DNA of 64,000 bases from Paenibacillus kyungheensis. Its GTDB lineage: Bacteria; Bacillota; Bacilli; Paenibacillales; Paenibacillaceae. The stretch is from positions 3,262,001-3,326,000 of the forward strand of contig NZ_CP117416.1 in the NCBI RefSeq assembly GCF_028606985.1, read 5' to 3'. Position 1 is the first letter of the stretch, and every line of letters begins with the position of its first letter. The position numbers and the translations under genes were made by a program. Shown in pieces: positions 5,085-57,878 of this stretch. The notes beneath the pieces were generated by a model that worked only from the letters and a program-made list of their open reading frames with translations, was not told the DNA's origin and did not search any database.

Positions 5085-8000
5085 ATGAGAAAGTTTATGA
5101 TGATGTTTTTGGTTTTGGTGGTGACATTAATAGGGTCAGCGCCTGCTACGCTTTTTGCAAGTGAGGAAGGAACAAGTAATTTGGTAGCAAGTAAAGAAAG
5201 CCAGGATTCAAGTTTCTTAAATTTATTTCTTTATGGAGACTATAATATGACATTAAAACAAGGAGAACCTTTTATTGAAGAAGGTTGGAGTGTAGCAGAC
5301 AGTGTATATAGTGAAAATGAGTTAAAAATAAATATTACATATACATTAAATTCTGTTCCAGTAAATCAAATTGATACTAATATACCTGGAATATACGTAA
5401 TCACATATATTGCAGAAAATCCAGCTGGAAAACGTTCTTATCCTCAACAACGTACTATTGATGTTGTTGCTACTGAAAAACAGAAAGATCTTGATCAGCT
5501 AAATATCCGTGGTGCGTTAGGTATGGCATATCATAATGGTTCTGTCTATGTTGCACAAGGCAGTTCAGGAATATCAAAAGTCGAATTAAGCTCTGGAACA
5601 GTTACTTCTATCGTGTACGGTGGATACTATGCCGATAATGTTGTTACTGTTGCTTTCAATCAAGCTGGCGACCTATTTTATACTTTAGAAAACAAGTCAA
5701 TCATCAACAAGATAGATGCTCAATATTTACAGGATGCTGCGTTAACTCCAGAACAATTTAAGAAATATAGTTCACTTTATTTAGACCTTAGTGACAAAGC
5801 ATCTGATGGTAACGATCCTATAAAAAATATTTCTAATATTGCATTCAATTCTCAAGATCAGCTTTACATTGCTATTCCGCTTGATTTTTTTGACACTACT
5901 CTGTATAGATGGAATTCAAATGATCAATTGTTGGAAAGAGTCACACAAGAAGACCTTGAAGATTTACAAGTGATGACATTCGACGAAAATGATAATCTAT
6001 TCTTTAAAGCTACTTTATATAAACCAGATTTTTCAGACCGTGGATTTTTCAAAATTTCTGCCAATGAATTAAAAAACTTACCAGTAGCTGATACATCTTT
6101 CAAATCATATCTCGAAATTAATACAATGAATATTAATTCAGACGGCATCGTTTTTTTACCTGATGGTCGAGGTTATTATAGTGAAAATGGTAAAATAAAA
6201 GCAATTTTTCCTCGCTCCGCACCTTTAATTGCCTTAAAAGGAAATTATAATCCTGTTCTTTTTGCTGGAGATACTTATATTGAAGAAGGAGTAACAGTAC
6301 AAGATGCTACCTATTCTAAACTGGATGTAAAAGTCACTTATACTTTAGATAGTAAAGCTATATCTTCTATAAATACGTCTATTCCAGGCGAGTACACGGT
6401 TCATTACAACGTGACCAATCCTGCAAATATCTCAGCGCTAGAAGTAACAAGAAGAGTAACTGTTAAACCTCTTCCTTTAAGTATAGAAGGATTAGATATT
6501 CGCAAGATAGCAACTATGACTGCTTGGAAAGATCACTTATATATTGCAGATTTTCAAAAAGGATTTTATGAGGTTATTAAAACCAGTACTGGTTACAAAA
6601 GATCGTTGCTTGCTGCAACGCCTCTGGCAAATGCTGTAGCTGTAGATCAACAAGGAAATTTATTTTTCTCAATGAATGCTTATCATTATATCTTTAAATT
6701 AGATGCTCAATATTTAAATCGCTCAACCCCATTAACTCAAGAAGAGCTCTTAACATTAAGTCAACCTTATTATCATTTTACAGATACAGGAGCAGTTTTT
6801 ATAGATGGGTTAGCTTTTGACCATCAAAATCAGTTGTATATGTCTGTAACTAAAAATAAGACGAGTCAAATTTTGAAAATGGATGGTTCTACTGCTACCA
6901 CTCCGATATTAGTAATTGATTACCCTAGTCGCACAAATGATATTGATATAAGTCCTGCTGGAAATTTATATATTAATGCAAATAACACACATATATTTCA
7001 AGCAACATCTGCATTATTAAAAAACTTGCCACTTGATATTAATGATTTAGTAGACATGGGAAGAAATAATGAGGATAACAGCATCGTTTTCTTACCTGAT
7101 GGTACTGCTTATGGAAGTAGTATTCAGCGCAGTGTAACTGGAGAACAAGTTATTCAAAAACTAGACTTTACAGATCCTAAGCAAACTGTAGATGTTACAG
7201 GTATTACACTAAGTACTTCTACACTTACAATCAACAAAAAAGATCAACCTTTCACTCTTCAAGCAACAGTTGCTCCTGTTAACGCAACTCAAGCGGATAT
7301 CACTTGGATGAGTAGCAATGAGAAAGTCGCACTGGTGAAAAATGGAGTGGTTACACCTATCGCTAAAGGAACTGCAATCATTACAGCAACGACTGTAGAT
7401 GGCAATTTTAAAGCAACTGCAACAGTGAACGTCAAAGAATCTGATGATAAAAATACCAATTCATCGAATACAAATAGTAATTCTAATGTAGCAACCAATA
7501 CTGGTAAATCAACTGTACTATCTGCTAATAATATAAGTAGCACAACACAAATATCTTCAGCAAATGGACAGCCACAATCCAGTATTTTATTTTCTACAGA
7601 CAAATTGCAAACAGAAATTAATAAATTACAAGCAAACAATCAGAAAACAGCAACTATTACTATTCCAAACACTGCTAATTCATTGAAAATGACGATGCCA
7701 CAAACAGCTATAAACAGTCTAAATCAAGCTAATATGAACTTGGACTTTAATACAGAACATGTTCAATTGGCTATTCCAACAGCATCCTTACAATCGTTGA
7801 AAAACGATTTGCAATTTCAAGTCATTCCTTTAACTTCTTCTACCGATCAAAATGCTGTGAAGTTACGTGCACAACAACAATCACTTGTTAAAAATGTATC
7901 CAAAGATGGAAATATCACAGTCGTTGGTACACCGATGAATATTGAAACGAATTTGCAGAATCAGTCAGTAGATCTGGTTATGCCTGTAGATGCTAACGCT

Positions 8001-21950: not shown

Positions 21951-22580
21951 TTATGAATGACGTGCTTTGGCAAGCCATCGTAATGAAAGTAATGCTAGCA
22001 TCATACCTACTACTGATAAAATCATCCAGTATTGAGGATGACTTGGACTCATAGGAATAACCAAAGGATCGATCAGACCGCGCTCAGAGCCTACAAAATG
22101 TAACGAAGAATTCGCTACTGTTGCATTATCGCTTGTAGCAATCGCTGTAGGTACAATCCCTGATACACGCTCTTGTGCTGCATCCCGATCGAATGTTCCT
22201 GAGAAATCGAGTGTTAGATATAATGAACTACATACAAATATAGCAAACAAGCAGAGAATCCAGGCCGATAAACGACGGCGGAACAAACGCAATATAGGTC
22301 CATGCTTACGATCAGTCTGTAACACCCATGGAGATTCAGCGTAAATACGATCCATAACTGTAAGGTTTATTTTTTCTGCCTCAGCAGTCATTATCAGCTC
22401 AGAAGCTTTGTCTTCTTCCACCTGAGCCTGAATTAAATCATAACTTTCCTGCCATATTTGAAATTCCGCCGCACAAGCCGGACACTGTTCTATATGACGG
22501 TCAAGTGCCTGGCGGCGCGAATCATTTTTCGGAAGATCATGATATATCCCGAATAACTCTTCGGCCTCTCTGCAATTCAT
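21951..22580 (-). CDS. membrane anti-sigma factor with N-terminal zinc finger (zf-HC2)
   Basis: The first 40 residues carry a ZAS zinc-binding motif (H-x3-C-x2-C in HIEQCPAC, with an upstream Cys in MNCREAEELF). Two transmembrane helices follow (near 108-125 and 180-200) with an external loop between. Such proteins hold an ECF sigma factor at the membrane until a surface signal triggers release. The start overlaps the sigma gene stop by four bases (ATGA), the classic arrangement. The signal is unknown. Confidence 0.88.
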   Translation of the reverse strand: MNCREAEELFGIYHDLPKNDSRRQALDRHIEQCPACAAEFQIWQESYDLIQAQVEEDKASELIMTAEAEKINLTVMDRIYAESPWVLQTDRKHGPILRLFRRRLSAWILCLFAIFVCSSLYLTLDFSGTFDRDAAQERVSGIVPTAIATSDNATVANSSLHFVGSERGLIDPLVIPMSPSHPQYWMILSVVGMMLALLSLRWLAKARHS

Positions 22581-23176
22581 TTTCTTTTCATCCCTTCAAT
22601 AGGCTCATCATAGACCGAATCATAGAAGTACGGTTCTAACCGAACTTTTACACTCGCTCTTGCCCGGAACAAAAGAGACTTGACGGAGCTTACACTCTGA
22701 GAAAGAATTTCAGCGATTTCCTGATAATCCATCTGGTCATATTCGCGGAGGATCAATGCAGATCTTTGCTTTTCAGGTAAAAGATCAATTGCTTCACGTA
22801 CCATCTGTACACGTTCGTTACGCAATGCAGCTTGTTCTGGCACCATGCTGTTCGGTGCTAAAGGAACAAAACCACTTTCTTCGAGTGGTACACTGCCATT
22901 TTTTTGTTTGCGCAGTTCACTAAGTACGGTATTGCGTGCAATTGTATATAACCATGTCGAGAACGAAGCATCTACTTCCCGGAAGGAATGAAGGCTTTTG
23001 TAAGCCTTGTAGAACGTCTCTGAACATAAATCTTCTGCCATCATCTCGAGATTGGAGTTTTTAAGCATATGATATACAAATGCCAAAATTTTGCGCTGAT
23101 AACGACGCATCAGCTCTGAATATAACTCCACGTCACCGTTTTTAATTTCCTGAATCAACAGGGAATCATCTGTCAT
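22577..23176 (-). CDS. ECF-type RNA polymerase sigma factor
   Basis: From the ATG at 23176 (MTDDSLLIQEIKNGD) the protein has 199 residues. GAGGAGGG lies a suitable distance upstream; the open frame continues 36 codons earlier without a ribosome site. Region 2 (YSELMRRYQRKILAFVYHM, DLCSETFYKAYKSL, FSTWLYTIARNTVLSELRK) and region 4 (LLPEKQRSALILREYDQMDYQEIAEIL) are complete. It pairs with the overlapping anti-sigma gene. Target promoters are not known; autoregulation is likely, but I could not assign its promoter. Confidence 0.9.
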   Translation of the reverse strand: MTDDSLLIQEIKNGDVELYSELMRRYQRKILAFVYHMLKNSNLEMMAEDLCSETFYKAYKSLHSFREVDASFSTWLYTIARNTVLSELRKQKNGSVPLEESGFVPLAPNSMVPEQAALRNERVQMVREAIDLLPEKQRSALILREYDQMDYQEIAEILSQSVSSVKSLLFRARASVKVRLEPYFYDSVYDEPIEGMKRK

Positions 23177-23741
23177 TCTAATGCGACCCTCCTCGTTGCT
23201 GCCGCCGCATCTTTCCGTTCCTTGTATATTAAGTAATACCGAAACGGACGGCAAAAGTTGCGGTAGAAAACGAATTTCCCACAACTTTACAACAACTTCT
23301 CTAGTTTAAAATGGATTTGAAATGATAAAACTACGAATGTGACTAAACTGCAATATAATAAGCGATGAATTATCGTTAGTTGGTACGATTGAGAGAGCTT
23401 TATTTAATAAAATAAGTCTCAGAAAAATGTCCTTTTGTATCCTATCTAATTATCAGACGGAGTACAAACAAAAAAGGTTGCTGATTTTAGAAAAAAAATT
23501 TAAAAATTCATTATTCTTTTTGAAGCTCGATTGCAAGATGGACAAAGAGGATGTTGTGAAGGTGATACATTCCCTTGATTTTGCTGTATCTATGCTTCTT
23601 TATGTAGGTCTCCTTTTGACTATAAATCATTATCGGTTAGAGATAGATATTTTATGAAGTTATTTAGCAAGGGAATTAAAATAAATCTAAAACATTTAAT
23701 AAAAAAAGACTGCTGATTTTCAGCAATCTTTTTTGTAATAA
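23177..23741. other. gene-free stretch upstream of the sigma gene
   Basis: No supported gene lies here. The stretch holds the upstream region of the sigma gene, AT-rich DNA, a weak 76-codon plus-strand frame (23427-23657) without a ribosome site, and the terminator at 23701-23734. Confidence 0.6.
23701..23734 (-). terminator. terminator of the secreted-protein gene
   Basis: Minus-strand AAGATTGCTGA and TCAGCAGTCTT form a stem with one mismatch and loop AAA, flanked by A- and T-runs, seven bases after the stop at 23742. Confidence 0.8.
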
Positions 23742-25331: not shown

Positions 25332-25422
25332 CAAAAAGAAACCGCTAACATAAGTTAGCGGTTTGTTCCCACCTAAGAAGGGGGAGCTAGTATTGGATAG
25401 GAGTGGAGAGAAACCATACTGT
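25332..25422 (-). ncRNA. candidate independent small RNA with pyrimidine-rich anti-Shine-Dalgarno segment
   Basis: A near-consensus sigma-A promoter lies just upstream (TTGACA at 25453-25458, 18-base spacer, TATACT at 25429-25434), giving a predicted start near 25422. The transcript would end at a perfect intrinsic terminator (AAACCGCTAAC/GTTAGCGGTTT, 25339-25364, then CTTTTTG) after about 91 bases. It carries CUCUCCACUCCUAUCC and CUCCCCCUUCUU, both complementary to purine-rich ribosome sites. The only frame is 14 codons without a ribosome site. The upstream tyrA gene has its own terminator, so this is not its 3' end. Confidence 0.6.
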
Positions 25423-25428
25423 ACTTTC

Positions 25429-25458
25429 AGTATACTGTATACGCTTTCATTCTGTCAA
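25429..25458 (-). promoter_or_regulatory. sigma-A promoter of the candidate small RNA
   Basis: TTGACA and TATACT are separated by 18 bases on the minus strand; this is among the best matches to a housekeeping promoter noticed in the window. There is no protein-coding gene between it and the terminator 65 bases downstream. Confidence 0.7.
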
Positions 25459-25513: not shown

Positions 25514-25549
25514 GGAAGCCAGTTTACTGTGAGATGTAGACTGGTTTCC
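25514..25549 (-). terminator. probable terminator of tyrA
   Basis: Minus-strand GGAAACCAGT and ACTGGCTTCC pair with one mismatch, followed by an AT-rich tract with TTTTT. It lies about 60 bases after the tyrA stop at 25608. Confidence 0.55.
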
Positions 25550-57605: not shown

Positions 57606-57878
57606 AATGATTCTAACGTCTATGAAGGAAAAAAGTAGCATGATGGTTTTCAGAGAGCCGGTGGTTGGTGCAAACCGGTAAGCCAAATGTTATCTTTGAG
57701 CGATCCTGAGTCACTGTATTGAAACCAAGTAGGTACAGTCGGTTGATCCCGTTAGCGATCCGGTCAAAACATTGACCATAAGGCTGATTCTTGTGAGAGA
57801 ACAGCGAATTAGGGTGGTACCACGACAGCTCTCGTCCCTTTGCTACAGTAGTAGTGTGCGGATGAGTGCTTTTTTTGT
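57606..57878 (+). ncRNA. T-box riboswitch upstream of serA (serine-type)
   Basis: Stem I starts near 57606 and contains the AG-bulge sequence (AGAGAGCC around 57651-57658) and a terminal loop GGTTGGTGCAAACC. The T-box sequence AGGGTGGTACCACG is at 57811-57824. A candidate serine specifier TCC lies at 57704-57706, tentative. Downstream, GCTCTCGTCC (57828-57837) pairs with GGATGAGTGC (57860-57869) before T7, the terminator. Uncharged tRNA would favour readthrough into serA. Confidence 0.92.

Follow-up and report, generated by a model that had tools for sequence, protein, structure and literature searches.

RoxS/RsaE and FsrA are described as small RNAs (sRNAs) that act on the ribosome sites of mRNAs through C-rich segments. 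RoxS is reported to be controlled by Rex, and FsrA is controlled by Fur, not by CcpA. Repression by CcpA is described for RsaI (RsaOG) of Staphylococcus aureus, a stand-alone sRNA that blocks the Shine-Dalgarno (SD) sequences of mRNAs (PMC9266662); it uses a C-rich region for mRNAs, has G-rich regions as well, and reportedly does not occur outside Staphylococcus (PMC8216469). RosA of B. subtilis is also described as a CcpA-repressed stand-alone sRNA, but it is a G-rich sponge of ~229 nt for RoxS and FsrA and, as far as the cited text goes, has no C-rich region (PMC8216469). In lactic acid bacteria a cre (the CcpA operator) lies at the promoter of 6S RNA and, for some species, inside the gene as well (PMC8414754).

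The locus studied here lies in a window of 64,000 nucleotides, by which we mean the whole stretch of Paenibacillus kyungheensis DNA that was analysed, and encodes a predicted C-rich RNA of ~91 nt, for which CcpA control is predicted as well. Its conserved part is C/U-rich, and the G-rich regions complementary to C-rich sRNAs that mark a RosA-type sponge were not found in it. At the gathering score Rfam gave nothing at the locus or at the RNA in 26 related loci, and the search of the whole window returned only a T-box leader elsewhere (57613-57842, plus strand, 105.3 bits with a gathering score of 93). A search of the 201-bp stretch at E <= 10 returned only weak matches, all far below the gathering scores, and none to RoxS/RsaE, FsrA, RsaI or 6S RNA, the last being a different RNA with a different function. 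The initial annotation had likened the RNA to RoxS/RsaE and FsrA; the likeness in C-rich segments holds, but no kinship emerged from the Rfam search of this stretch, and the seed is another one. The RNA would be most similar to RsaI in its proposed action and would occupy the same regulatory place as RosA, but it is a member of neither, since it has no Rfam match and carries another seed.

Among the papers listed in our literature searches (few subscription journals, main texts) none names this RNA or its sequence strings, and no such sRNA was found described for Paenibacillus, Brevibacillus, alkaliphilic bacilli or Thermoactinomyces. In P. riograndensis 27 small RNAs were reported, most of them given there as having no known function (PMC5670726), and one of the unnamed intergenic transcripts of that organism may correspond to the RNA described here.

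The transcription unit and its neighbours

The whole unit of promoter, RNA and terminator occupies positions 25458-25332 of the window on the minus strand. The promoter scan found the -35 hexamer TTGACA at 25453..25458 and, 18 bases after it, the -10 hexamer TATACT at 25429..25434; with 11 of the 12 consensus positions it is the best promoter between 24000 and 27000. Sites with at least 9 of 12 positions are not above chance in this region (8 observed, shuffle mean 11.4), so the promoter by itself is no proof of the unit. The predicted RNA would run from 25422 to 25332, its start being placed from the -10 hexamer and the conserved ACAGUAUGG. The terminator scan and the fold place a Rho-independent terminator at 25332..25364, with an 11-bp stem (25364-25339) followed by the T-run CTTTTTGTAT, and the region holds 5 terminator-like sites compared to a shuffle mean of 1.6. 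The 94-nt stretch 25424-25331 folds with -29 kcal/mol (z -4.7). On the same strand tyrA (Pfam PDH_N and PDH_C) lies upstream and the ASCH gene downstream. The promoter, the terminator, which ends at about 25332, and the location between tyrA and the ASCH gene are as the initial annotation had given them. The terminator that it ascribed to tyrA is a weak claim, as the T-run that follows the hairpin at 25514-25549 belongs to the plus strand. This terminator-like hairpin lies between tyrA and the sRNA, and no obvious plus-strand gene was seen there.

It is the conservation that lifts the unit above chance, because the DNA search matched it in all 59 genomes of the order Paenibacillales (the genome of the window included) and the seed hardly varies while the linker and the stems change. 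When one copy from each of the 59 genomes is aligned, hardly any change is seen in the first 26 nt, ACAGTATGGTTTCTCTCCACTCCTAT, and the seed TTTCTCTCCACTCCTA departs in two copies only (L057 and L059, one base each). Sequence variation is found in the linker, in the small hairpin, often of the form GCAC...GTGC, and in the terminator stem. One would argue that the AUG, which stands at the conserved 5' end of most order copies, opens a tiny leaderless mRNA, AUG GUU UCU CUC CAC UCC UAU (MVSLHSY...). However, the f16 copies read CTG ATT TCT CTC CAC TCC TAG, with no ATG and with a stop, the f58 copies have TAG ahead of the seed, and the second copies of f37 are without the ATG. In addition, variation is no greater at third codon positions than at the other two, and there is no SD sequence. 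Thus we consider a leaderless mRNA to be extremely improbable.

The evidence for an independent gene extends to a larger set of 194 distinct copies, drawn from 213 loci (L001-L177 and 36 class loci) after those without the exact 16-mer, duplicates and those near a contig end had been dropped; since possession of the 16-mer was the selection criterion, its lack of variation in this set is by construction, and the unbiased figure is that of the 59-copy alignment. A promoter (at least 9 of 12 positions within 60 bases before the seed) was found in 194/194 copies and a hairpin with a T-run in 193/194, whereas 1979 random positions in the same loci gave 106 promoters, 86 terminators and 9 cases of both. 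The RNA therefore has its own promoter and terminator and lies between genes, which is what a trans-acting anti-SD sRNA should have.

The gene tyrA lies nearby in 52/59 order loci, in 102 of the 118 core-scan loci listed and in 13/40 class loci, and hence the locus looks old. Given this proximity, the RNA could belong to the gene downstream, as its leader or attenuator, or form the tail of the tyrA operon. Such a reading is very improbable, however: besides the RNA having its own signals, the gene next downstream varies between loci, and in L009, L086, L087, L093 and L132 the RNA stands on the strand opposite tyrA. The proposal of an independent small RNA is thereby strongly supported, and we are nearly certain that the locus holds a conserved sRNA gene. 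Elsewhere in the neighbourhood, at 21951-23284 of the window on the minus strand, an ECF-type sigma factor gene (Sigma70_r2, r4) is followed by a gene for a zf-HC2-like protein (below its cut-off); past the RNA, homologues of this sigma gene are found in 45/59 order loci.

The cre operator and the spread of the RNA across Bacilli

A cre, ATGAAAGCGTATACA, lies between the -35 and -10 hexamers at 25436..25450 on the minus strand and fits exactly the CcpA consensus WTGNAANCGNWNNCW quoted in PMC10989752. An exact cre near the seed was found in 57/59 order loci, compared to 0.1 expected from shuffles and to 16/6781 background windows of the same loci. The genome of the window encodes CcpA (494.6 bits, curated cut-off 442.35), so that a cre at the promoter and a genomic CcpA, as they would be seen together in a member of the CcpA regulon, are both present, the cre being exact in those 57 of 59 order loci. 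In B. subtilis a cre overlapping the promoter is reported to repress (PMC8414754).

The core-scan loci, a set that overlaps the order loci, have an exact cre in 92 of 117 (the core-scan total being at least 118). In the two sets of class loci the exact cre is confined to 4/20 and 6/16, and a cre with one mismatch was found in 12/20 and 9/16, with 1.0 expected in each set. Among the 22 named loci outside the order the cre is exact in 5, is present within one mismatch in 16 and is absent from 6. Its place is also not constant: the cre lies in the promoter in Shouchella and Marinococcus, but in Brevibacillus, Halalkalibacter and Alkalihalobacterium it makes up the stem of the terminator. That the cre persists in spite of these shifts in position speaks for selection on CcpA control, and on these sequence grounds we regard CcpA control of the RNA in Paenibacillales as very probable. 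A conserved but untranscribed DNA element, such as a protein site, would also be compatible with the cre, which is itself a DNA site. However, the sequences of promoter and terminator change around a core that stays between them, while the cre moves, and this makes a mere DNA element hardly credible. In f58 (L273, L274, L275, L287) and f46 (L251) a palindrome of the CCGAACG..TCGGTCG type occupies the sRNA promoter where other families have the cre, and therefore another regulator or repressor may act there.

The cre and the spread through the class are both additions to the initial annotation. A covariance model built from the 59 order copies, which is mainly a sequence model as it holds only 3 base pairs, matched 147/398 Bacilli genomes, in 62/145 genera and under 27 family labels. 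The 19-nt pattern with up to two mismatches was found in 195/398 Bacilli genomes, with 13 places for the reversed control; this is an upper figure, because of 20 further pattern places inspected 16 resemble the RNA and 4 do not. Two of these four (L277, L283) fall in the start regions of mRNAs encoded on the opposite strand, and the other two (L284, L285) are without the unit. At least half of the 398 sampled Bacilli genomes gave no copy. In the collection of named genomes, at least 118 stretches contain the 22-nt core without a mismatch; the 80 matches listed include Paenibacillus, Cohnella, Saccharibacillus, Brevibacillus, Aneurinibacillus, Thermoactinomyces, Melghirimyces and Caldalkalibacillus, and also Shouchella, Halalkalibacter, Alkalihalobacterium, Alteribacillus, Marinococcus, Geomicrobium and Pseudalkalibacillus. 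The exact 16-mer was found in 0/192 genomes of the other classes of the phylum, and a 69-base query had no match in plasmids and phages. A second exact copy of the RNA is present in some f37 and f32 genomes. In Alteribacillus iranensis (L077) two Bacillaceae-1 RNAs (Rfam RF01690; 5601-5668 and 6171-6238) flank the sRNA core at 5970-5991.

In general sRNAs are described as having a narrow species range (PMC8216469). Contrastingly, by the model count this one is present in well over a third of the sampled Bacilli genomes, and its seed barely changes.

The seed and its possible partners

The near-invariant seed UUUCUCUCCACUCCUA (25398..25413, minus strand) is anti-SD-like, being the reverse complement of the SD-like UAGGAGUGGAGAGAAA, and is identical over its 16 nt in 57/59 order copies. 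In predicted folds its unpaired probability is 0.80, compared to 0.46 for the rest of the RNA. The RNA thus has a conserved pyrimidine-rich seed that is complementary to the SD sequence and, in computed folds, accessible, as would be looked for in a trans-acting anti-SD sRNA, and this is consistent with pairing to ribosome sites.

The initial annotation had proposed two anti-SD segments. The first, CACUCCUAUCC, was confirmed and coincides in part with the conserved, mostly unpaired seed, but the genome-wide count of long matches lends it no support, and the pairing with mRNAs is what we infer. The second, CUCCCCCUUCUU, lies in a lineage-specific hairpin (25367..25385, minus strand; defined by fold and alignment), which is replaced by a different hairpin in other lineages. 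This segment does pair locally with AGGUGGG, but among the 59 aligned orthologues it is shared only by L002, the closest relative; since it belongs to the variable part of the RNA and is common to L002 only, neither the segment nor its gating role is supported. A 5' hairpin presenting the seed as its loop was considered as well, as GUAUGG/CCAUAC in alkaliphilic bacilli and UUCUG/CAGAA in f16, and is attractive in single lineages only: native flanks fold no better than permuted ones (mean -2.79 versus -2.87, sd 0.08), and RNAalifold returned no more than 3 pairs and no two-sided change in any of them, which leaves a common 5' hairpin unsupported.

Target prediction with the seed, which had been suggested as a check, gave long matches no more often than a permuted control. 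Matches of 13 nt before AUG were found at 43 places in 40/398 genomes, and the permuted control gave 58 places, also in 40/398. One of the 43 places (G402) is the opposite strand of the RNA gene, and genomes that have such matches without having the RNA, as judged by the model and the 19-nt pattern, number 3/40 for the seed and 6/40 for the control, which offers no useful contrast. In the window's own genome the complement of the 17-nt pattern with up to two mismatches has no place beyond the RNA gene itself, and places with three mismatches equal the reversed control in number.

The lack of an excess of long mRNA matches (43 versus 58 places) would fit a decoy or sponge, that is, a real CcpA-controlled RNA whose seed binds a protein or another RNA instead of the ribosome sites of mRNAs, and so would the 16 nt of held seed, which exceed the need of most mRNA seeds. 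The seed, however, complements an SD-like sequence, and no partner RNA gene for the 17-nt pattern was found in the own genome within two mismatches; we regard the decoy as unlikely. Translational control by the seed is rather probable.

Shorter matches offer a few leads. In the own genome 14 places (13 distinct sites) have a 9-nt match before a start, and the reversed control gave 6. Two of these places are the central carbon genes cggR (Pfam CggR_N), for the repressor of glycolysis, and glpX (FBPase_glpX), for fructose-bisphosphatase, which are candidate targets as leads only. The cggR match reaches at least 9 nt in 9/43 genomes, at least 8 nt in 12/43 and 15 nt in L366, and is broken in the others, including most genomes of the same genus. 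The pattern AGGAGTGGAGA..ATG occurs at 69 places in 38/59 relatives, of which 30 loci were inspected. One gene with this match (G000, G006 and G047, and the same letters in G055), which we take to be hisI-like, was rejected, as the matching letters encode the last residues and the stop of the frame before it, KGVEIR-stop (presumably hisF). Another, presumably RND-efflux-like, was set aside with its match found in genomes of the same genus only. In f21, acyl-CoA-dehydrogenase-like genes have seed matches in their start regions of 17 nt (L296/L297), 15 nt (L295) and 13 nt (L298). No NCBIfam model scored over its cut-off on the f21 gene, and no site was found at the chosen starts of 14 homologues in 7/43 relatives. 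These genes may be counted as a candidate target in f21 only.

A proposed link between sugar supply and translation

Our preferred reading, to which we assign a probability of about 0.65 from sequence comparisons, is that the locus encodes a CcpA-repressed, independently transcribed, trans-acting anti-SD sRNA of an old Bacilli family. When a preferred sugar is present, CcpA would bind the cre overlapping the promoter, or in some lineages the one in the terminator stem, and would keep the gene low. Once the sugar is exhausted the RNA would be transcribed, and its exposed seed would pair with SD regions of the AGGAGUGGA type and block the translation of selected mRNAs. A more far-reaching and tentative possibility, which we hold as doubtful, is that this is the ancestral catabolite-control sRNA of Bacilli, usually single-copy and situated near the trp-his-tyr locus since early in the class, whose cre moved between the promoter and the terminator stem and which tunes central carbon mRNAs when sugar is gone.

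Direct testing is feasible, since seed, cre and locus are all precisely defined. The RNA is probably an old and so far unnamed sugar-responsive regulator of protein synthesis. Should the proposed mechanism prove true, CcpA and post-transcriptional control would be connected through this RNA in Paenibacillus, Brevibacillus, alkaliphilic bacilli and Thermoactinomyces.
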